Positions 1 to 24,772 of a stretch of 51,248 nt of DNA are shown piece after piece. The first letter of the stretch is position 1; each line of letters begins with the position of its first letter. The stretch lies in the IMG/VR virus record IMGVR_UViG_3300048999_000032, positions 1-51,248 of that record; one strand, 5' to 3'. The stretch is from a virus. The position numbers and the translations under genes are program-made. The notes below the pieces were generated by a model that was not told the origin of the DNA, made no database searches, and saw nothing but the letters and a program-made list of their open reading frames with translations.

Positions 1-29
1 GTCATGACCATCGTGTTAGTTAAAAACTG

Positions 30-326
30 TCAGAGTTGCCAGCGTCGTAACTGAGTTACGCGACGCTTGTAGGTGGCGCGGTTGCCACCCTGTGGGCACT
101 CACGGCCACGATGCTCAGGGCCACGGGTGATGGTGCGGTCATGGTCGTCATGGCCTAGGTCCCACGGCATGGAGGGGTTGACCCACCCTCCGCAGCGCCA
201 GCACATGAACTGTTCGCCGGCTGCCATGCGTGCCACGTACTGAGCACGTAGTGCTTGATGCTTGGATCCCCATCCACCTGAAGTGGTGCTACCTGGTGGC
301 TTGGATCGTCGCCTTTGTGATGGCAT
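30..326 (-). CDS. HNH endonuclease, probable packaging partner
   Basis: A 98-residue basic protein with a compact HNH fold signature: a CWRC knuckle near residue 42, the DLGHDDHD segment with the first catalytic histidines, and GPEHRGREC followed by the NRATYKRR helix. It is the last gene of the leftward early operon. If the window ends join, the next gene in the same direction is the terminase small subunit. HNH proteins beside terminase genes in HK97-like phages are known to cooperate with terminase in end cleavage, and that role is inferred here from position. The family is clear; the packaging role is not proven. Confidence 0.82.
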   Translation of the reverse strand: MPSQRRRSKPPGSTTSGGWGSKHQALRAQYVARMAAGEQFMCWRCGGWVNPSMPWDLGHDDHDRTITRGPEHRGRECPQGGNRATYKRRVTQLRRWQL

Positions 327-354
327 GCGTCATCACCTACCTATGACGCAGTAG

Positions 355-483
355 CTACTGGGTTGGTGCCTCGTGGTCGTGGCATACGAGCTCTACCACT
401 GGGTCACCGTGGTCAGTGGGTACGGGACGCTCAGTGTCGGCAGGCTGGGGGCAACCGGGTTCGATGCACACTGGTTCGCTCAT
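355..483 (-). CDS. Small zinc-ribbon-like protein, 42 aa
   Basis: Begins MSEPVCIEPGCPQPADTERP and carries CX4C plus CHDH near the end, enough ligands for one zinc. The ATG at 483 is chosen because a GGGAGG ribosome site lies 6 bases upstream and the start overlaps the TGA of the upstream gene by 4 bases. Function unknown. Several similar cysteine-rich mini-proteins are scattered through this operon. Confidence 0.7.
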   Translation of the reverse strand: MSEPVCIEPGCPQPADTERPVPTDHGDPVVELVCHDHEAPTQ

Positions 484-692
484 GAGTCCCTCCCGTGCTG
501 CGGGCAGTAGTCGTCCACATCGGAGATGTGCGGACAGGTGCACGGCTCGCACATGTGGGTCTTGGCGGTCATCGTGTACCCATCAGCGATGGGCCCGATC
601 CGCACATGGACCGGTGGCGTCCACCCGTCCTGAAGCTGGGCCAGGAGTTCAGTGCTGACCTCGACGGTCACGAACTTCTCGCCTTCGCTCAT
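480..692 (-). CDS. Hypothetical protein with C-terminal Cys/His cluster, 70 aa
   Basis: The N-terminal half is an ordinary beta-rich segment beginning MSEGEKFVTVEVSTELL. The C-terminal part has CEPCTCPH then CPQH, a probable zinc site. The start at 692 has AGGGG about 8-11 bases upstream, and the stop overlaps the next start as ATGA. I do not recognise a family. The 118 bases before it hold a hairpin and no gene. Confidence 0.68.
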   Translation of the reverse strand: MSEGEKFVTVEVSTELLAQLQDGWTPPVHVRIGPIADGYTMTAKTHMCEPCTCPHISDVDDYCPQHGRDS

Positions 693-714
693 GGGTTCAT
701 CCCCTACTCGTGAC

Positions 715-748
715 GAAGCCCTGACCACACGAGGTAGGCCAGGGCTTC
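715..748. terminator. Hairpin after the MmpS-like gene
   Basis: A 9-bp perfect inverted repeat (GAAGCCCTG with CAGGGCTTC, 16-base loop) lies downstream of the MmpS-like gene on the minus strand. There is no T-run, so termination is inferred from position and stem strength only. The rest of 693-810 holds no convincing gene. Confidence 0.45.
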
Positions 749-810
749 TGGTGTCCGGGACCCGACCGCCGGATGTCCGCGATAACGCGGCGGGGCTTTC
801 ACAACGGATC

Positions 811-1254
811 TTACTGCACCCGGCCTTGGCAGGTGGCGATGGTGTACCCACCGGTCGAGGTGTTCTCACTGACCACCACGCCATCGACGGTGATGCGACA
901 GGTGACCGATCCTGCGGGCTGTTGGTTCTGCACCGACAGGTAGAGGAAGTCACCCGTGCGGAACGACGTCAGGGTGTCGCTGAATGGCAGTGCGCCGGTT
1001 CCCTGACTGGTTCCACTCTCGGTCTGTGCCGTGACCATGCCGGTCCTGCCGCCACCCGTGTAGGCGTCTGCAGTGGCCTCGTACACCACCGTGTGCGTGG
1101 CCGTGGTGGAAGGTCCTACTCCCACCCCTACCGCTACAGCGACGGCCGCGAGGATCAGGGCCAGTGCGATCCAGAGCGGCGTGTAGCTGCGCTTCGGAGC
1201 CGGCTGTCCCGGGTCTGGCAGGCGCGTCTGCGGCCTCTGCTGTTGCTGCGTCAT
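811..1254 (-). CDS. MmpS-like small membrane protein
   Basis: 147 residues: a polar proline/glutamine-rich N-terminus, one transmembrane segment (about residues 23-45), then an extracytoplasmic beta domain with the MmpS pattern ALPFSDTL, TCRITVDGVVV, ENTSTGGY and ATCQG. The two cysteines could form the family's disulfide. The ATG at 1254 is preceded by AGGGGGAAGTC. MmpS proteins normally partner MmpL lipid transporters in Corynebacteriales; here there is no MmpL gene, so the phage copy may modify host envelope traffic or exclude other phages (inference). It is divergent from a ribbon-helix-helix gene with operator-like repeats between them, and looks like a self-regulated lysogenic-conversion cassette. 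Confidence 0.75.
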   Translation of the reverse strand: MTQQQQRPQTRLPDPGQPAPKRSYTPLWIALALILAAVAVAVGVGVGPSTTATHTVVYEATADAYTGGGRTGMVTAQTESGTSQGTGALPFSDTLTSFRTGDFLYLSVQNQQPAGSVTCRITVDGVVVSENTSTGGYTIATCQGRVQ

Positions 1255-1325
1255 GACTTCCCCCTGTTGGTGATGGGGGCTTAGACGCGTGCCCTGACCG
1301 GCCGGTTCCCTGGCTCCCCCTTCGG

Positions 1326-1382
1326 AGTGTGACACTGGGAAGTGTCTAACACAATAGGTCGCGGGGAGGTAGTGTCTAACAC
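1326..1382. promoter_or_regulatory. Three operator-like palindromes in a divergent promoter region
   Basis: The 128-base gap between the MmpS-like gene and the ribbon-helix-helix gene holds AGTGTGACACT at 1326-1336 and two identical copies of AGTGTCTAACAC at 1341-1352 and 1371-1382. All share AGTGT and ACAC half-sites. The last two are exactly 30 bp apart, about three helical turns. The last copy ends at the base before the ATG at 1383, overlapping the start region of the plus-strand gene. This is the arrangement expected for autoregulation by the adjacent protein (inference). Confidence 0.65.
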
Positions 1383-1541
1383 ATGCCACGCACCGGACCG
1401 CGCCGCGTCATCGTTGGGGTACGCCTCAAGGCTGAGGCCATCGCCCTCATTGACCAGATGGCTGAGGCTGAGAAGGTCAACCGCAGCGAGATGGTGCGCA
1501 TCCTGCTTGCTGAGGCTGTAGCTGCCAGGCGTAAGGGTTAG
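1383..1541 (+). CDS. Ribbon-helix-helix regulator, 52 aa
   Basis: The only plus-strand gene in the left 21 kb. The protein begins MPRTGPRRVIVGVRLKAEAI, giving a beta strand (RVIVGVRL), helix (KAEAIALIDQMAEAEK), turn (VNRS) and helix (EMVRILLAEAVAARR), the CopG/Arc-type pattern. An in-frame TAA precedes the ATG; GGGGAGG lies 14 bases upstream, longer than usual. Its start abuts an operator-like palindrome, so it probably represses itself and the divergent MmpS-like gene. Its stop overlaps the convergent lipoprotein-like gene by 4 bases. Confidence 0.75.
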   Translation: MPRTGPRRVIVGVRLKAEAIALIDQMAEAEKVNRSEMVRILLAEAVAARRKG

Positions 1542-1714
1542 AGCTTCCGCTTGTCGCCAGGTCCGCACTTCTTATTGCCGTCCACGTGGCAGTCCCAGCA
1601 GGGATCGCCTTCGTGGCACTTGACGGTCGGCTTCGGGTCCGGCTGAGCGGGACAGCTGGTTGCGCCTGCCAACAGGGCGAGCGACAGGACCACGGAGGTC
1701 AGGAGCCTAGCCAC
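1538..1714 (-). CDS. Small secreted or lipoprotein-like protein, 58 aa
   Basis: A GTG start at 1714 with CGGAG eight bases upstream gives MARLLTSVVLSLALLAGATSC, a signal peptide ending in a lipobox-like ATSC. The mature part is short, with CHEGDPCWDCH and CGPGDKRK, so four cysteines could form disulfides. A GTG at 1735 is an alternative start. Function unknown. Confidence 0.6.
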   Translation of the reverse strand: MARLLTSVVLSLALLAGATSCPAQPDPKPTVKCHEGDPCWDCHVDGNKKCGPGDKRKL

Positions 1715-1838
1715 GCCACCATCTCCGCTGCTCACGAGCGCCAGTCCTGCTGGTTTCCCACGTCTCGACCAGTGGCCAGATGGCCGGCTCAGTCTTGGTG
1801 GGGCGGTGTCTGCCTCGGGTCAGCCTTGGCCAGCGCAT
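1707..1838 (-). CDS. Small basic tryptophan-rich protein, 43 aa
   Basis: The ATG at 1838 follows the stop of the upstream gene by one base, and the frame overlaps the lipoprotein-like start by 8 bases. The product begins MRWPRLTRGRHRPTKTEPAI and ends EQRRWWRG. No family is recognised. It is supported only by operon packing and direction. Confidence 0.45.
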   Translation of the reverse strand: MRWPRLTRGRHRPTKTEPAIWPLVETWETSRTGAREQRRWWRG

Positions 1839-1839
1839 G

Positions 1840-1977
1840 TCAGCTGAGGCCGTCGATGATGTGCAGGCCTTCGTCATCCTGGTTTGGATTCCACGGGTCA
1901 CGGCAGACGCCGTCGATCCCGATCAGTCCGAGTTGCGTGAGTGTGACCGGTTCGCCGCAGGTGATGCACTCAGCCAT
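1840..1977 (-). CDS. Zinc-knuckle mini-protein, 45 aa
   Basis: MAECITCGEPVTLTQLGLIG with a third cysteine in DGVCRDPW and a C-terminal HIIDG. This could be one treble-clef or ribbon zinc site. The ATG at 1977 is preceded by GGGTGGTGAT. The 100 bases upstream hold an in-frame cysteine-rich extension of the preceding gene (see findings). Function unknown. Confidence 0.65.
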   Translation of the reverse strand: MAECITCGEPVTLTQLGLIGIDGVCRDPWNPNQDDEGLHIIDGLS

Positions 1978-2077
1978 CGCGCGATCACCACCCGGATCCT
2001 TGTCGGCAGGTTGGGTCGTGGTCGCACATGGCGGCCTTGCACTTGCCACACCCCCAGTGTGGTTGCAGATGGTGACG

Positions 2078-2293
2078 TCAGGTGCCGAGTTGCGCAGAGA
2101 GCGCGCGTTGGTACGTCTCGGATGTCTCACCTTCGGCGCAGACGGCAGCAACGACAGAGGCCCACTCGTTGGCGGGGAGCGTGAGCGTCTCGGTGCTACG
2201 GCCGACAGCGGCGCTTAGCTTCACTGAGCCGTCTTCCTGGCGCTCGAAGTACCAGCCGTCGCGGGCGTGGAATCCGTCGTGGGTGATCGACAT
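2078..2293 (-). CDS. Hypothetical protein, 71 aa
   Basis: MSITHDGFHARDGWYFERQE suggests a short beta sheet followed by a helical C-terminus (ANEWASVVAAVCAEGE). The start at 2293 has AGGAG nine bases upstream. After its TGA the same frame stays open for 30 codons encoding a cysteine-rich tail (1985-2077). Function unknown. Confidence 0.75.
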   Translation of the reverse strand: MSITHDGFHARDGWYFERQEDGSVKLSAAVGRSTETLTLPANEWASVVAAVCAEGETSETYQRALSAQLGT

Positions 2294-2296
2294 GAA

Positions 2297-2338
2297 TCAA
2301 ACTCCTGTCACAGCGGTCCGTACACGGCCTTGGTTCAT
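2297..2338 (-). CDS. Possible 13-residue leader peptide
   Basis: MNQGRVRTAVTGV has GGGGGTGG just before its ATG and contains the AGGAG ribosome site of the next gene inside its last codons, the layout of a translational-coupling leader. The rest of 2339-2420 shows no gene with a usable start. Confidence 0.35.
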   Translation of the reverse strand: MNQGRVRTAVTGV

Positions 2339-2420
2339 GCCACCCCCAGTGGCGGATGGTGCGACGTACTGGTCACGCTCAGCTGGTGGTGTTTCCGCAG
2401 GTCAGGACCGTCGTACCGCT

Positions 2421-2522
2421 TCAGTCGGTCAGGGTGTAGTCATCCTGAGTGTTACTGAGCGTGTCGATGATGAACTCGAACAGGTCGCGGCATGCGGCGT
2501 TGATCGCTGTGTCGGGATCCAC
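2421..2522 (-). CDS. Small acidic protein, 33 aa
   Basis: The GTG at 2522 has a strong GGAGG seven bases upstream. The product begins MDPDTAINAACRDLFEFIID and ends DDYTLTD, an acidic amphipathic helix. No family is recognised. The codons use G or C at third positions like neighbouring real genes. Confidence 0.6.
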   Translation of the reverse strand: MDPDTAINAACRDLFEFIIDTLSNTQDDYTLTD

Positions 2523-2543
2523 CTGCTCACCTCCAGTTGCATA

Positions 2544-2610
2544 CCGAAGGCCCGGCTACTCAGGTGGGGTAGCCGGGCCCTCGGGTGAGGTAGCCGGGCC
2601 TTCGGGTGAT
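2544..2610. repeat. Alternative hairpins from a 21-bp tandem repeat
   Basis: CCGAAGGCCCGGCTAC at 2544-2559 is the exact reverse complement of 2590-2605 and matches 2569-2584 with one mismatch. The two right-hand copies are a 21-bp tandem repeat. Either copy can pair with the left arm, giving mutually exclusive 16-bp stems. The TAG stop of the 38-residue gene lies inside the left arm. A related stem core (GAAGGCCCGGC) recurs at 40166. Confidence 0.8.
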
Positions 2611-2672
2611 GTTCCGGTGGGCGTGGGTTCCACACCAGCATCTCCATCAGTCTTTCGGACGGCTGCAGGCAC
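2556..2672 (-). CDS. Proline-rich repeat mini-protein, 38 aa
   Basis: The GTG at 2672 has GGAG six bases upstream. The product begins MPAAVRKTDGDAGVEPTPTG and ends in two copies of the heptapeptide SPEGPAT followed by PPE. The tandem DNA repeat that encodes these heptads also forms the hairpins at 2544-2610. Probably disordered; function unknown. Confidence 0.55.
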   Translation of the reverse strand: MPAAVRKTDGDAGVEPTPTGTSPEGPATSPEGPATPPE

Positions 2673-2720
2673 GTCCTACTCCAACTGAGGCGCACTCGTT
2701 GTGCTACCACCGGGTCTAAC

Positions 2721-2747
2721 GCTCACCAATCCCGGAGGATGGTGAGC
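2721..2747. terminator. Hairpin upstream of the repeat mini-protein
   Basis: GCTCACC at 2721-2727 pairs with GGTGAGC at 2741-2747, and the stem extends inward with one bulge to 11 bp. It sits in the gap between the 152-residue conserved gene and the small genes to its left. There is no T-run. The remainder of 2673-2829 shows no supported gene. Confidence 0.5.
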
Positions 2748-2829
2748 AGCTAAGCAACCGGCCCTACCAACAACTGCGGCCAGTTAAGCAGGAGAGTACA
2801 CGACGGAGTTGCGAGATGCGGTTCGCGCG

Positions 2830-3288
2830 TTACTCGGCGTGTCCAGCTGTCAGAGCGAGCGACTCCTCGCGCTCCCTGTACGCCGCGTACAGCGTCTTCC
2901 GTTCCGGCCCCGGCTCAACGATCAGGTACGGCAGCATCACCTCGTCAAGCGTGGCCATCTGCGCCTCGATGATCGCCAACTGAGCAGCAAGCCAGTCCTT
3001 CGCTACGCGCCATGCGGTGCGCTCTGCCTGACCGGGTTCGGCGTAACGCTTCTGGATCCGCCGGGCGCGGACCTGCTTCTCAAGCAGTCGTTGCACTGCG
3101 GTGACGTCGATCGGCAGCGAGAACTCCCGTGGCCCGTGCGGGGTTGCGAGAGTGAACTCAAGCCCGACATGCTGCCCCGCCTCGAACATCACCGTCACGC
3201 GGGCAGCTCCGTGCTTCGAGAGCATCAAACTCATCTCGCCAGCCGTCTTCGACGACGCGACGGTACTGGAGTAGTTCAGGGTGCCCAT
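2830..3288 (-). CDS. Conserved phage protein of unknown function, 152 aa
   Basis: MGTLNYSSTVASSKTAGEMS is followed by a beta-rich half with LEFTLATPHGPREFSLPIDV and then a long helical region containing QAERTAWRVAKDWLAAQLAI. This two-part pattern is one I recognise from many phages and prophages, always as an uncharacterised protein. The start overlaps the preceding stop as TGATG. Confidence 0.8.
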   Translation of the reverse strand: MGTLNYSSTVASSKTAGEMSLMLSKHGAARVTVMFEAGQHVGLEFTLATPHGPREFSLPIDVTAVQRLLEKQVRARRIQKRYAEPGQAERTAWRVAKDWLAAQLAIIEAQMATLDEVMLPYLIVEPGPERKTLYAAYREREESLALTAGHAE

Positions 3289-3581
3289 CAGGCCTTGCCC
3301 TCGGGTCCGAAGTAGTACTCAAGGGTGGCCGCGCGGGTCGCGTCACGCTTGGCTGCAAGCTCAGCGATCAGCTCGTCAGTCAGGTGAGGGTTGCTCTTGG
3401 CGGTGCAGTCGTTGCCCGCCAGATGACTCCATCGGTCCCACAGTTCGTGAGCAGCCTTCTCCCGATCGGTCACAGTCCGCGACGGGGACCACGCGTATAT
3501 CACGCAGACGTCCTCGGCAACGGCGAGCCGCGTCTCCAGTTCAGTGCGGGAGAGCGCTCCGTACTTGGTAGCGTTTGCCAT
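3288..3581 (-). CDS. Hypothetical protein, 97 aa
   Basis: MANATKYGALSRTELETRLA is mainly helical and ends in a charged segment (AELAAKRDATRAATLEYYFG). AAGGAG sits six bases before the ATG. A 7-bp hairpin (GCTCCGG with CCGGAGC, 3606-3636) fills the gap upstream. Function unknown. Confidence 0.75.
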   Translation of the reverse strand: MANATKYGALSRTELETRLAVAEDVCVIYAWSPSRTVTDREKAAHELWDRWSHLAGNDCTAKSNPHLTDELIAELAAKRDATRAATLEYYFGPEGKA

Positions 3582-3651
3582 ATCGACTCCTTGTTAGTCG
3601 GTCACGCTCCGGGGCCGTTCGCGCGGTCGCCGGAGCCTCCCTTTGATTGTC

Positions 3652-4422
3652 TCACGATGCACGCTCCGCAGGTGCGTTCGCAGCGGCCAGCGTCACGAGG
3701 TCATCGAACAGGTACAGCCGCTTCCCCACGGGGTCATGCCCATGCTCGCTCAGCCGCTTCCGCTCGAACCACTTGTCGATCGTCTTCTGCTGCACCGGTA
3801 ACCCGAAGCGGGACAGCAGCACTACGCCTTCCTTGGCCGTGACCAGCCGCCCGTACACCTGACCTCGCATCCAGGTCAGCATCTCCGCCACGTCGTAGTT
3901 CAGCCCACAGGGGCGGCAGTCCACAGAGGCCGCGTCAGGCTTGGCGTACATGTCACCGCCGCAGTCCTTGCAGGGACCCGCGTAGATCCGGTCCGCTGGC
4001 CTGTCCACGGCCTTGCGGATCGCGCGGACGGCTGACGTGATCTCCTCCACCGCCTCGTGACCGGCGCGATGGTGCCTTAGCCAGACGACATGCGCCAACA
4101 ACCAGCCAGCGACAGCAGGCGGGGTGTCGGTGTCGGGTAGTGCCTTGCCGCGTTCCTCCGAGATCAGACGGCACCACGTGCTCAGCGTGTTGCGCAGCAC
4201 GTAGCCGAGCTCAGACGCGACCGGGTTGAACGGGAGCGCCTGCTCACCACGGCGGAACTCAGCAGCGGCATAGCGGGCCTGCTTGGTGAGGACCGTGTCC
4301 AGCTCCTCCCAGAGCGCGGCAACGTCTCCTAGGGCTCGCTCCAGGTGGTCCTGGCAGTGCTGGCACACGTACCCGTCGCCTACCGGACGGTCGCACCAGT
4401 CGACCAAGCAAGGTTCGTTCAC
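3652..4422 (-). CDS. Zinc-ribbon and winged-helix DNA-binding protein
   Basis: 256 residues. The N-terminal zinc ribbon is CLVDWC with CQHC, and a second ribbon in the middle is CKDCGGD with CRPCG. The C-terminus is an HTH/winged-helix (VTAKEGVVLLSRFGLPVQQK, then KRLYLFDDLVTLAA) like MerR or excisionase domains. GTG at 4422 is chosen because GGAGG lies six bases upstream and it overlaps the stop of a mini membrane gene as GTGA. It probably binds DNA; target unknown. Confidence 0.75.
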   Translation of the reverse strand: MNEPCLVDWCDRPVGDGYVCQHCQDHLERALGDVAALWEELDTVLTKQARYAAAEFRRGEQALPFNPVASELGYVLRNTLSTWCRLISEERGKALPDTDTPPAVAGWLLAHVVWLRHHRAGHEAVEEITSAVRAIRKAVDRPADRIYAGPCKDCGGDMYAKPDAASVDCRPCGLNYDVAEMLTWMRGQVYGRLVTAKEGVVLLSRFGLPVQQKTIDKWFERKRLSEHGHDPVGKRLYLFDDLVTLAAANAPAERAS

Positions 4423-4517
4423 AGGTGCCTCCAAGCCAGCCATGCGACAGTGCCCCAGAATGCGAGTACGCCGAGGATCGCGACGATCCGGATCAGCCAC
4501 CTTGTGCGTTCGGTCAT
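4419..4517 (-). CDS. Single-pass membrane mini-protein, 32 aa
   Basis: MTERTRWLIRIVAILGVLAF continues to WGTVAWLAWRHL, a basic start and one hydrophobic helix spanning most of the protein. GGAGGAG lies five bases before the ATG, and it overlaps both neighbours by 4 bases (ATGA and GTGA). Function unknown. Confidence 0.72.
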   Translation of the reverse strand: MTERTRWLIRIVAILGVLAFWGTVAWLAWRHL

Positions 4518-4672
4518 CCGGTCTCCTCCAGTCCGCAGCGGGCACACACCAACTCGACACTCACGACTTCTTCGCCGTCGATCAGGTCACCCGCGGGGAA
4601 CATGCCCAGCGGTCGTTCGGTCTCGGCCAGCCGGCCACAGCCGTCAGCGCAGTACACGGGATCTAGGGTCAC
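4514..4672 (-). CDS. Zinc-ribbon mini-protein, 52 aa
   Basis: The GTG at 4672 overlaps the upstream stop as GTGA and has GGGAGG five bases before it. The product starts MTLDPVYCADGCGRLAETER and ends ELVCARCGLEETG, giving CX3C and CX2C zinc ligands. The final codons GAGGAGACCGGATGA double as the ribosome site and start of the next gene, a junction repeated elsewhere in this operon. Confidence 0.72.
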   Translation of the reverse strand: MTLDPVYCADGCGRLAETERPLGMFPAGDLIDGEEVVSVELVCARCGLEETG

Positions 4673-5118
4673 GACGCCTCCCAGAGAGTGCGGGGGATGC
4701 CGCCAGTGCCCTTGTCCTCGCGCGGCCGGGATGGTGTGGTCCAAGGGCCGCGTGCCGGACGCTCAGCGACGACGCGCCAGCCAGCGGCGCGGAGGCTTGC
4801 ACCGGTCTCGCCTTGCTGCGTGTAAGTGACGAGCCGGTAGTAGCCGAGCGCCTTGGATGCGCGCCACGCGGCTCCGTAGAGCATGCTGTTGGCGTTCGGT
4901 GTTCCGTCTGTGGCGGTCCGGTTGACCTCCAGTGTTAGACCGTCCTGGTAGGCGCGAGCGACCGGCCAGCCGACCATCGCTACTCCGCGCAGCACGCCGT
5001 CGTCGTCAGCGACACCGACGCTGAATTTGTGACCCACCTTCGGCTGGTGATGCCGGTGCCACATCTCCACGAAGCCGCAGGCGTCCGCGAAGGAGATCGG
5101 CACTAGGTGCAGGCTCAT
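4669..5118 (-). CDS. XF1762-like GNAT-fold protein
   Basis: 149 residues. MSLHLVPISFADACGFVEMW, FSVGVADDDGVLRGVAMVGW, the NRTATDGTPNANSMLYGAAW segment and LVTYTQQGETGASLRAAGW match the XF1762 family, a phage and prophage group related to GNAT acyltransferases. Its acceptor substrate is unknown; antirestriction or modification of a host or phage protein is possible. Confidence 0.78.
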   Translation of the reverse strand: MSLHLVPISFADACGFVEMWHRHHQPKVGHKFSVGVADDDGVLRGVAMVGWPVARAYQDGLTLEVNRTATDGTPNANSMLYGAAWRASKALGYYRLVTYTQQGETGASLRAAGWRVVAERPARGPWTTPSRPREDKGTGGIPRTLWEAS

Positions 5119-5456
5119 GCAGCACCGTCCCTGGGCTCCTGTGGGCTTCTGACGGCCTCGGACACCTCCGGGTGCCCCGGAACCCCTGAAGTCGCATCAG
5201 AGGTGGTACCAGAGGCTTCCCGGGGGATGCGGGCGCGGAGCATGGTGCCGCGTTTGGCGGTCCAGCGGTCCCAGAGCGCCTCGTCCTCCAACTCAGAGAC
5301 CCAGACGGTCACCTCGCGGATTACATCCCGCGTGGCCTCGGCTCTGCCAATCTTCAAAGCGGCCTCACCCGCTGTCTCGGTGAGTACCTTCACCTCAGCG
5401 GCGGTGTACGTGTGACCCCTGCCGCGACCTTCTCCGGTGCATCCGTCGTCGGTCAT
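5115..5456 (-). CDS. Hypothetical protein, 113 aa
   Basis: ATG 5456 is preferred over GTG 5462 because AGGAG is five bases upstream and ATGA overlaps the preceding stop. The protein has a helical middle (AEVKVLTETAGEAALKIGRA and on) and a low-complexity proline, serine and glutamate tail. No family is recognised. Confidence 0.7.
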   Translation of the reverse strand: MTDDGCTGEGRGRGHTYTAAEVKVLTETAGEAALKIGRAEATRDVIREVTVWVSELEDEALWDRWTAKRGTMLRARIPREASGTTSDATSGVPGHPEVSEAVRSPQEPRDGAA

Positions 5457-5602
5457 GCACACTCCTCACAAGCGCCGAACTTGCATTCGCGGCAGACGGT
5501 CACCACGGCCAGCTCGTGGTCACCTTTACGCCACAGCAGGCCGCGGATGCGGCCGCAGCAGAAGCACCCCAAGCCGGTCTTGCGTCCGAACCAGCGGATC
5601 AT
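5453..5602 (-). CDS. Double CXXC zinc-ribbon protein, 49 aa
   Basis: MIRWFGRKTGLGCFCCGRIR, a short basic strand, then CRECKFGACEECA. Eight cysteines in 49 residues imply one or two zinc ions. It is coupled by ATGA overlaps on both sides. Function unknown. Confidence 0.75.
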   Translation of the reverse strand: MIRWFGRKTGLGCFCCGRIRGLLWRKGDHELAVVTVCRECKFGACEECA

Positions 5603-5826
5603 GCGGGGTCCCTGCTTCCGATCTCACGGGACAACTTCGCGAACTGGTGGACCAGGAAACAGCGGGCGCACTTCACGTCCTCGTCGTGGACGTCCGGGAA
5701 GTGGTTCTCGATCGCCTGCGCGATCTCTTCACCGATCTCGCGGCGGACTGCTCGTGCCTCTCGGGTCTCATGCCGAGCCTTCAGGCCGTGCTCGCGCGCC
5801 TCGCGGAAGGCGTCTCGGTCACTCAT
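5599..5826 (-). CDS. Hypothetical helical protein, 75 aa
   Basis: Strongly charged helices (MSDRDAFREAREHGLKARHE) are followed by HDEDVKCARCFLVHQFAKLS with a CARC knuckle. It is coupled to both neighbours by 4-base overlaps. Function unknown. Confidence 0.72.
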   Translation of the reverse strand: MSDRDAFREAREHGLKARHETREARAVRREIGEEIAQAIENHFPDVHDEDVKCARCFLVHQFAKLSREIGSRDPA

Positions 5827-6092
5827 CGGTTCGGGATCCGCATCGTGCCGACAGGCTCGTACGTCTCGTGGTACGAGGCGAGCGCGATCGGATACGGGAA
5901 GCCGTTCTCGTTGACGGCGAGCATGCCTCGCCAGCCCTCAGGCAGGTCGTAGTCGCCCTCCTGGGTCTCCACGACGCACGGCCCGCTGATGGGACCGAAC
6001 ATCGGCGTCAGCGCGGTCTTGCGGTGCAGCGCCATCTCGCTGACGGGGATGGGGAGTTGGTCGGGGCTGTAGCGCTTCGTCTCGTCGCTCAC
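5823..6092 (-). CDS. Hypothetical protein, 89 aa
   Basis: MSDETKRYSPDQLPIPVSEM opens a mixed alpha/beta protein with a GWRGMLAVNENGFPYPIALA stretch. No zinc ligands or membrane segment. Operon position and overlaps support it; no family is recognised. Confidence 0.72.
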   Translation of the reverse strand: MSDETKRYSPDQLPIPVSEMALHRKTALTPMFGPISGPCVVETQEGDYDLPEGWRGMLAVNENGFPYPIALASYHETYEPVGTMRIPNR

Positions 6093-6382
6093 TTGGTTGT
6101 CTCCTGTTCGGTGTAGGGGGTGGCGGCGATCTCGCGTGCCTTGTCGATCGACACCCCGATCTCGCCTATCGCGTCGTCGATGGGTCGGCCGCCCATCACG
6201 TCAGTGACAGCGCCGTCGATGGTGGCGAGGTGCTGGCGGAGTTCACGCGCACGGTCGTCGGTCGTCTGGGCTTGCTCGGTGCCGTCTTCGGGACAGGCTG
6301 GGCAGGGAGCTTCGACAAGCTCGCCCTGCCTGTATTCGAACTGGCAGCAGCAGCGGGGTGGGTGGTTGTGCTCGGCGCTCAT
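6089..6382 (-). CDS. Hypothetical protein with N-terminal Cys cluster, 97 aa
   Basis: HNHPPRCCCQFEYRQGE and CPACPEDG give a probable zinc site, followed by a helical tail. The C-terminus AATPYTEQETTK resembles the ends of the next two genes, because all three share a CCCCTACACCGA-type DNA segment before the following start. Confidence 0.7.
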   Translation of the reverse strand: MSAEHNHPPRCCCQFEYRQGELVEAPCPACPEDGTEQAQTTDDRARELRQHLATIDGAVTDVMGGRPIDDAIGEIGVSIDKAREIAATPYTEQETTK

Positions 6383-7161
6383 TCGGTCTCCTCGGTGTAG
6401 GGGCCTGCGAAGGTGGGGGCGAAGTCGAGAACGCCCTGCGAGAGGCGGCGGACGATCGCCGCGCAGTACGCCTCGTCCTTCTCGATCCCGACCGCCCGAC
6501 GACCGTTAGCGACGGCGGCAACGAGCGATGAGCCGCTGCCCGCGAACGGGTCGAGCACCGTGCTGCCAATTGGCGACCCGTAGCGGATCAGAGGCTCGAG
6601 GATTCCGGTCGGCTTCTCGGTCGGATGGATCGCCTTGCCGTGCATCGAGCGCACGTCAATGACCGAGGTAGCGAGACGGGGACCACCGTCTTCGCTGACA
6701 TAAGTGTTGTCGCCACGCTCGCCCTGGTGATGAGGCGGGCGATTCTTGCGCCGAACGGTCTTCTTCACCGCGTCGCTGGTGTACTCAGGTGCCTTGTAGA
6801 TGTCGCTCCAGCGGCCCTGGTACCAGAACAGCGCGTTGTCGTGGACGCGGCGGAACCGGTCGTTGTGGAACCCGGAGCCGTTGTGCTTCTTCCAGACGAT
6901 GTCCTGGCTGTAGGTCCAGTCGGCGGTCAACTCAGGCCAGTGGTCGCCGAACATGCGGACCGACCCGAAGCACCACATCGACTGGACGTAGCGGGCGACG
7001 ACCGCGGGCCAACCATCAGGCCACACATCCCACTTCAGCGATGTGTCCCCGTATGGCGGGTCTGCGATGCACAGAGCGAACGACTGATCAAGCGCGGGGA
7101 GGATCTTTCGGCAATCTCCGAGGTACAGCGTCACGCTCTCGTCGGCGTAGTAAGGCTCCAT
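6379..7161 (-). CDS. DNA adenine-N6 or cytosine-N4 methyltransferase
   Basis: 260 residues. The catalytic motif DPPY is at residues 34-37 and the AdoMet motif VLDPFAGSGSS near residue 215, so the motif order is that of the beta class. The middle has SQDIVWKKHNG and a HPTEKPTGILEPLIRY segment, typical of phage amino-methyltransferases. It likely protects phage DNA from restriction; the sequence specificity cannot be read from the protein. ATG 7161 overlaps the preceding stop as TGATG; a TTG at 7164 is an alternative. No partner restriction gene is present. Confidence 0.9.
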   Translation of the reverse strand: MEPYYADESVTLYLGDCRKILPALDQSFALCIADPPYGDTSLKWDVWPDGWPAVVARYVQSMWCFGSVRMFGDHWPELTADWTYSQDIVWKKHNGSGFHNDRFRRVHDNALFWYQGRWSDIYKAPEYTSDAVKKTVRRKNRPPHHQGERGDNTYVSEDGGPRLATSVIDVRSMHGKAIHPTEKPTGILEPLIRYGSPIGSTVLDPFAGSGSSLVAAVANGRRAVGIEKDEAYCAAIVRRLSQGVLDFAPTFAGPYTEETE

Positions 7162-22527: not shown

Positions 22528-23613
22528 GTGGCACACATCCGTAAGTTGGCGTCCGGGAAGTGGCAGGCGACGGTCCGTCACCCGTCGGGTCAGCGCTGGT
22601 CGAAGTCGGACCCGCTGAAACGAGTGGTGAAGGACTGGGCCGACGAAGCAGAAGCGAGGATGCGGCGCGGCGACTTCCTCGATCCGGCCGGCGGGAAGAT
22701 GGTCCTGTCGGACTGGTGGATGAAGTGGTCCACCACGCGCCGGGTCGAGGTGGCGACGAGACGGAAGAACACCTCCCACTGGGGCGTCCATGTGGGACCC
22801 GCCTTCGGTACGTGGCCGCTGGCAACCATCAAGTCCTGGGATGTCGAGCGCTGGGTGTCCGACATGGTGGCCGCGGAAGTTGGGCCCACCACGGTCGCCG
22901 CGTCGCTGAGTCTGTTGACCCACCTTCTGAACGCGGCAGTGAAGCATCAGCTGATCGGGGTCAACCCCGCCGCACTCGTGAAGGCTCCCTCAGTGCCTAA
23001 GCACAAGGACCGCTTCCTCACCCACGAGGAGGCCGACCGGGTGCTCGCGCAACTGGACGGCGTACACCGGCTGTTCGCTCAGGTGCTGCTGGGGACCGGA
23101 CTGCGGTGGGGTGAGGCCGCGGCGCTCGACGGGCGGCATGTGAACTTCCTGCGCAAGACCATCACCGTCGAGCAGGCGTTGGGGCGGGACGGGAAGATCA
23201 AGCCACCGAAGACGGGCGCCGGCTACAGGGATGTTCCGCTGACCGATGAGCTCACCGAGGATCTGTCGCGGCATGTGGTGAACCTTGATAAGCCGGTGTT
23301 CCAGCAGGCGAACGGGGAACGGTTCGACTACTCCAACTGGCGTGCCCGCATCTGGGTCCCGGCAGTGAAGCGGGCAGGCCTCGATGACCCGCAGCCGACG
23401 CCGCATGATTGCCGCCACTCGTACGGCAGTTGGCTGGGCGACGACAGTGTTCCGCCGCAGGACATGGCGGCGCTGCTGGGGCACTCGGACTGGCGGATGG
23501 TGCAGCGGTACGTCCACGCCTCGGCGGCACGGTTCGCGAGAGCAAGGGCTGCGCTAGAAGGCGTACGCTCACACGAAAGCGCCCGACGCAGTGATGAGAC
23601 TGCGCCGGGCTGA
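22528..23613 (+). CDS. int: Tyrosine integrase
   Basis: 361 residues. The N-terminal arm-binding AP2-like segment is MAHIRKLASGKWQATVRHPS; a core-binding SAM-like helical domain spans about 55-150; the catalytic domain has Arg in LLGTGLRWGEAAAL, HDCRHSYGSWL (H-x-x-R), LLGHSDWRMVQRYVH with the His/Trp position and the nucleophilic Tyr. GTG start with AGGGGG five bases upstream. It should act on attP about 400 bp downstream, which contains arm-type repeats and a tRNA-Ala core. Confidence 0.95.
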   Translation: MAHIRKLASGKWQATVRHPSGQRWSKSDPLKRVVKDWADEAEARMRRGDFLDPAGGKMVLSDWWMKWSTTRRVEVATRRKNTSHWGVHVGPAFGTWPLATIKSWDVERWVSDMVAAEVGPTTVAASLSLLTHLLNAAVKHQLIGVNPAALVKAPSVPKHKDRFLTHEEADRVLAQLDGVHRLFAQVLLGTGLRWGEAAALDGRHVNFLRKTITVEQALGRDGKIKPPKTGAGYRDVPLTDELTEDLSRHVVNLDKPVFQQANGERFDYSNWRARIWVPAVKRAGLDDPQPTPHDCRHSYGSWLGDDSVPPQDMAALLGHSDWRMVQRYVHASAARFARARAALEGVRSHESARRSDETAPG

Positions 23614-24127: not shown

Positions 24128-24184
24128 ATGTCGGAGCGGCAGGAGAGCGGCAGGACCTCCCACCAGACAGGGGGAGACCCAACC

Positions 24185-24772
24185 ATGAGTGACTACGGCC
24201 AGCCAGACCCGCAGCAGTTCCAACCGCAGCACGCGAGCTCGCAGCACCAGGCACCCAAGCCGCCGAAGAAGCACACGGTCCGCAACGCGATCCTGATCGG
24301 CGTCGGCTGCCTCGTCGTCGCGACGGTCGCGCTCACTGCGCTGTCGCCTGCGCCGGCCGAGGCTCCGTCCGCGGTCACGAGCCAGGCGGGTACGCCGACG
24401 ACCAAGCCGTCTGCCGTGAAGTCCACCGTGCAGCTTTCCCCGAAGGCAACGCACAAACCGGCGCCGAAGCTGACCGTGTCCCAGGTGCAGGCGATCGGCT
24501 CAGCCGAGTCGTACCTGTCGTTCACGGCGTTCAGCCGCAAGGGCCTGATCCGGCAGTTGTCGTCGGATGCGGGTGAGGGGTTCTCGGTGGCGGATGCAAC
24601 GTTCGCCGTGGACCACGTGAAGGTGGACTGGGACGAGCAGGCGGCGAAGAAGGCGCGGGAGTACCTGTCGCTGCAGCATTTCTCGAGGAAGGGTCTGATC
24701 CACCAGTTGGAGTCTGGTGAGCAGTTTACCCACGCTCAGGCTGTGTACGGCGTGACGAAGGCGGGTCTGTGA
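24185..24772 (+). CDS. Ltp-like membrane-anchored superinfection exclusion protein
   Basis: 195 residues. A Gln/Pro-rich cytoplasmic N-terminus, transmembrane helix at about 34-54, a Thr/Pro/Lys linker, then two Ltp/HTH repeats (SAESYLSFTAFSRKGLIRQL and REYLSLQHFSRKGLIHQLES, each ending in a VxxVK or YGVTK turn). Ltp of a streptococcal phage blocks DNA injection by competing phages; the same fold in a lysogeny-side gene next to attP suggests the same role. ATG 24185 has GGGGAG eight bases upstream. Confidence 0.85.
   Translation: MSDYGQPDPQQFQPQHASSQHQAPKPPKKHTVRNAILIGVGCLVVATVALTALSPAPAEAPSAVTSQAGTPTTKPSAVKSTVQLSPKATHKPAPKLTVSQVQAIGSAESYLSFTAFSRKGLIRQLSSDAGEGFSVADATFAVDHVKVDWDEQAAKKAREYLSLQHFSRKGLIHQLESGEQFTHAQAVYGVTKAGL

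Follow-up and report, generated by a model that had tools for sequence, protein, structure and literature searches.

Does a divergent pair of small genes near one end of a phage sequence form a locally regulated unit, and what would its regulator act on? The window, by which we mean the whole stretch of 51,248 bp analyzed here, is a temperate actinophage virus record whose terminase finds its best matches (~41% identity) in Mycobacterium phages such as Charlie and Phrann. The minus strand carries the terminase, portal, major head protein, and tape measure genes. Codon-usage gene calling assigned minus-strand genes to 1-21 kb, followed by a plus-strand block at ~21.2-28 kb that includes the integrase (22528-23613, +), after which minus-strand genes resume. 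Just 3' of the integrase, within the same block, lies a gene for a phrog_4980 'superinfection exclusion' protein (24128-24772, +). The pair studied here sits near the record end, beside an HNH gene (30-326), and comprises a plus-strand gene for a ribbon-helix-helix (RHH) regulator and a minus-strand gene for an MmpS-like protein (mmpS). The earlier note had described the former as the sole plus-strand gene in 21 kb, and gene calling agreed, leaving it as the only convincing plus-strand gene in 1-21.2 kb; the plus-strand ORFs at 5242-5415 and 6230-6400 scored at the threshold and look spurious. The interval given earlier for the cassette (1255-1541) covers the RHH gene, and the MmpS-like ORF falls just outside it.

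The regulator gene runs on the plus strand from an ATG at 1383 to a stop at 1541 and encodes 52 amino acids. Its product matches PF01402 with 31.5 bits (E=1.6e-7), above the curated gathering cut-off of 20.5, which places it in RHH_1, the CopG-type DNA-binding proteins; together with the ORFs, this match bears out the earlier description of a 52-codon RHH gene divergent from the MmpS-like gene. Protein searches in IMG/VR turned up RHH relatives with an MPR[T/P]GPRR start in common. Those in L029, L044 (Finch), and L045 (Stormageddon) lie near the terminase, that is, near the genome end, as in the window. Named phages were also searched for the RHH protein and the mmpS leader, and neither was found. 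A short basic ORF (MRWPR..RHRPTKTEPAIWPLVETWETSRTGAREQR) at 1707-1838 (-) of the window is conserved in L004, upstream of the RHH gene.

The opposite gene (811-1254, minus strand) encodes a 147-aa protein with one predicted transmembrane helix and a periplasmic beta domain. It scores 19.6 bits against PF05423 (E=1e-3), slightly below the cut-off of 21, and the MmpS5 PDB sequence matches it at E=2.6e-4. In the AF2 model, the outer domain is confident and residues 1-50 are poor; the best structural matches are MmpS5 8em5 (Z 13.1) and 9mvz (Z 12.9), with the next unrelated fold at Z 8.6. The model combines a transmembrane helix with an eight-strand outer domain, and MmpS5 itself is described as one helix and eight strands (PMC12346298). 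Sequence and predicted structure agree on an MmpS fold for this protein, and the MmpS-like identity proposed earlier is thereby supported.

Between the two genes, the 128-bp intergenic DNA contains AGTGTGACACT at 1326-1336 and two exact copies of AGTGTCTAACAC at 1341-1352 and 1371-1382, 30 bp apart from start to start, just as the earlier note had reported. AGTGTCTAACAC is an imperfect palindrome (GTGT-CTA-ACAC). An exact 12-mer repeat appeared in 0.035% of dinucleotide shuffles of this intergenic DNA, and two GTGT-N3-ACAC sites in 0 of 20,000 such shuffles; judged by dinucleotide shuffles, chance would not be expected to produce the exact repeat. Across the 51 kb, no further copies of the window palindromes were found at 0-1 mismatches. 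The three palindromes had been called phased, a description that does not generalize, as the spacing between site centers ranges from 28 to 34 bp across the family and is 19 in one case. Nor do the three form one set: two are predicted operators, and the other, with a 1-nt center instead of 3, is a different element.

Most of the RHH relatives have paired GTGT-N3-ACAC sites upstream; in all, the pair was found in 18 promoters on 16 other contigs, located either at the RHH gene itself or, where this gene belongs to a short operon, at the leading gene. The reverse search, which used DNA only, returned 20 loci with the site pair in viral contigs and, in a stricter form ending in ATG, 3 loci in genome contigs. 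GC-rich matches with enough downstream sequence have an RHH-family gene, although weakly so in L056; the sequence of L060 ends too early to show whether one follows, and L065 comes from another part of the L008 contig, on which the RHH gene was observed. Matches to the site pattern at 43-57% GC (L046, L047, L049, L054, L055, L058, L059, L062, L066) lack an RHH gene and seem to be unrelated repeats, with TAGTGT/ACACTA repeat arrays, unrelated to RHH genes, in the lower-GC viral contigs L046, L049, L055, L058, and L062. The single occurrence among 394 scanned actinomycete genomes is G001, itself picked for carrying the pattern, so that the informative part is the absence of the pair from the other 393. 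More distant RHH proteins have no such sites upstream, and the family members in L010 and L038 are without the pair. On the L013 contig, the proximal site of one promoter has GCGT/ACGC arms, both changed together. This contig (IMGVR_UViG_3300028794_000007, which also includes L048 and L050) carries three RHH-type site pairs together with two or more RHH paralogues, possibly with separate specificities. Inverted-repeat sites at the gene's own promoter are conserved together with the gene. Because paired sites recur before RHH genes, and GC-rich matches of the DNA-only searches led back to such genes, it is very probable that the RHH protein represses its own gene.

The comparison of 19 promoters from 17 contigs, window included, places the sites on the promoter elements. 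The distal site contains TTGACA in 12 of the 19 and close variants in the rest, and the -10 hexamer is TAGTGT in 17, TAGGGT in one, and TAGCGT in one. Spacers of 16-20 bp separate -35 from -10 in 17 promoters; the remaining two, L005 and L029, have 22 and 7 bp between the hexamers, distances unsuited to a -35/-10 pair. In every promoter, 7 nt separate the -10 from an A, which opens ATG in 12/19 (two of these, L067 and L068, came from a search pattern that included ATG), ATC in 6/19, and AAA in 1/19. In the window, the putative distal operator (1341-1352, +) contains a poor RHH -35, CTAACA (1346-1351), 18 bp from the TAGTGT -10 (1370-1375), which stands 7 nt before the ATG at 1383; the putative proximal operator (1371-1382, +) abuts this start codon. 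Both the TANNNT motif and its distance are in keeping with mycobacterial promoters (PMC3898074), so leaderless transcription is likely wherever ATG follows 7 nt after the -10.

The third palindrome (1326-1336, minus strand) is probably promoter sequence, namely an extended -10 of mmpS, and not an operator. The minus strand reads AGTGTCACACT from 1336 to 1326, with the predicted -10 CACACT at 1331-1326 and TGT before it. Its counterpart is GTGCCACACT in L004 and L002, and GCGCTACACT in L003, and we read it as a promoter core because it persists in L002, a locus without an RHH gene next to mmpS; an operator equal to the other two is the less simple reading, given the different center length and this same persistence. 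L002, one locus of the four that carry mmpS, shows that an adjacent RHH gene is not always required, and L004/L005 share the divergent arrangement of the window. A 17-bp spacer would place the mmpS -35 at 1349-1354, where it overlaps the distal operator; bound RHH protein should therefore hinder mmpS transcription, and co-repression of mmpS through this predicted operator is likely. As for the earlier proposal that a prophage could express the cassette independently of the early promoter, the minus strand of 1-4000 showed no terminator-like sites, so transcription from upstream on that strand could also enter mmpS. At ~4400-4800 of L003, a different RHH gene occupies the divergent position, with GTGTATC-N8-GATACAC on its own -10, and a second palindrome, GTAGCGCGT-N9-ACGCGCTAC, reaches the mmpS -10; a different RHH gene with palindromes of its own suggests that the divergent regulator was exchanged there rather than lost.

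Downstream of its promoter, mmpS has a 36-nt leader block (1284-1319, minus strand) that is identical in the window, L002, and L004 and near-identical in L003. It is far more conserved than the mmpS coding sequence, the MmpS proteins of the other mmpS loci having 63-65% identity to that of the window. In L003, the leader is separated from mmpS by extra sequence at 4800-5000 that may represent a tail-protein-like ORF in two frames. A search with the leader pattern matched 15 loci, of which the real ones come from only three contigs (L014, L026, L027) and the rest are chance. A hairpin (CCCCC...GGGGG, 1260-1279, minus strand) that would cover the mmpS Shine-Dalgarno is weakly suggested: the pairing is possible in 4/4 leaders, and in the consensus fold of the four sequences one pair is changed on both sides. 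The single-sequence fold is no better than that of shuffles, and an Rfam search of 1-6000 gave nothing above the gathering score.

We therefore favor, with a probability of about 0.65, a single explanation that combines RHH self-repression through two sites, a probable lowering of mmpS, and an envelope action of the MmpS-like protein. The RHH gene probably has a leaderless promoter, with its -35 and -10 apparently covered by the two GTGT-N3-ACAC sites; an RHH dimer would bind these sites and thereby repress its own gene. As the distal site also seems to overlap the upstream portion of the mmpS promoter, the same binding would probably lower mmpS transcription. The MmpS-like protein, predicted to cross the membrane once and to expose an outer beta domain, would most likely join or compete in host MmpL complexes. 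The regulator-operator part appears to belong to a known kind, RHH autorepression, an assignment that is well supported by the promoter comparison. This comparison also supports the core of the earlier cassette reading, a locally regulated divergent pair whose RHH protein is the cognate regulator for two repeated sites, and parts from it over three equivalent palindromes.

The RHH protein might instead regulate only itself, with no switch common to the two neighboring genes; mmpS would then be expressed independently, either by read-through or from its own promoter and conserved leader. L002, where the mmpS promoter and leader stand without an adjacent RHH gene, favors such independence, as do family sites that go with RHH promoters in settings lacking mmpS and the highly conserved leader that mmpS has to itself; against it, the distal site and the predicted mmpS -35/spacer overlap in both the window and L004, and in L003 a palindrome next to a different divergent RHH gene lies over the mmpS -10. 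We regard this alternative as unlikely, if still a serious one. That the palindromes are operators of another regulator, such as a phage immunity repressor or a host factor, with the RHH gene a bystander, is very improbable: the site pair tracks RHH genes across many contigs and occurs once in the window, whereas one would expect the sites of an immunity repressor at early and lysogeny promoters. It is hardly credible that the RHH protein serves as the antitoxin of a toxin-antitoxin module, even though RHH is a common antitoxin fold and weak NCBIfam antitoxin matches exist. These matches fall far below their cut-offs, the 52-aa protein has almost nothing beyond its DNA-binding domain, and the neighbor is divergent and shows the MmpS fold. 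Moreover, PADLOC models, a library of described systems only, matched neither the RHH nor the MmpS-like protein, and the RHH gene stands alone on its strand here, whereas a type II toxin-antitoxin system would have a co-directional toxin operon.

Self-repression with probable control of mmpS, the reading we prefer, leaves the role of the MmpS-like protein to be considered. No MmpL gene was seen in the cassette. The protein most probably targets the host envelope, entering host MmpL complexes or competing in them, which we put forward because this is the most direct inference from the MmpS family. The envelope or phage-exclusion role raised in the earlier note is speculative. Among seven lysogens, only that of UmaThurman is reported to leave the plating of all heterotypic phages unreduced (PMC6426606); this says little about exclusion, because UmaThurman gp34 is no more than a C-terminal piece of 86 aa. 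Lipids exported by MmpL are important in infection by at least one mycobacteriophage, namely trehalose polyphleates in the case of phage BPs (PMC11633156). A bolder proposal, which we consider quite improbable, is a portable module in which an orphan MmpS-like protein under an exchangeable divergent RHH autorepressor and a conserved leader RNA would let a prophage alter MmpL-dependent lipid export of its host, and hence surface phage receptors. In the papers searched, we found nothing on phage MmpS or on a GTGT-N3-ACAC operator. The locus provides a concrete candidate operator for an actinophage regulator family, AGTGTTTGACACT and then TAGTGTNNNACAC directly before ATG, a pattern with which small, easily missed repressor genes become easier to find. 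It also offers a compact regulated promoter for study in actinobacteria, and phage MmpS-like proteins become candidates for envelope alteration.

Among known systems, CopG/Arc-type autorepressors are small RHH proteins with inverted-repeat sites at their own promoters. The window protein (PF01402) resembles them in its small size and in the inverted repeats at its own promoter, and its family differs in the paired GTGT-N3-ACAC sites on -35 and -10, the probable leaderless start, and the occurrence in actinophages. The MmpS-like protein shares with mycobacterial MmpS5/MmpS4 (PF05423), its best structural match, one transmembrane helix and an eight-strand outer domain; unlike them, it is phage-encoded, without an MmpL gene in the cassette, and only ~24% identical. 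Phages Myrna and MA5 as well as Gordonia phages encode proteins with similar predicted folds, and Walrus gp39, together with fold matches in Myrna, MA5, VanLee, and Bowser, has the same predicted domain. Walrus gp39 adjoins the integrase and repressor, has 35% identity to the window protein, and has no RHH gene annotated beside it. The start-associated sequences of Cluster K, 13-bp GGGATAGGAGCCC elements present in 11-19 copies per genome with 17-bp repeats (PMC3203893), are likewise conserved actinophage sequences with inverted repeats just before start codons, whereas the window has one site pair, placed at its own regulator gene.
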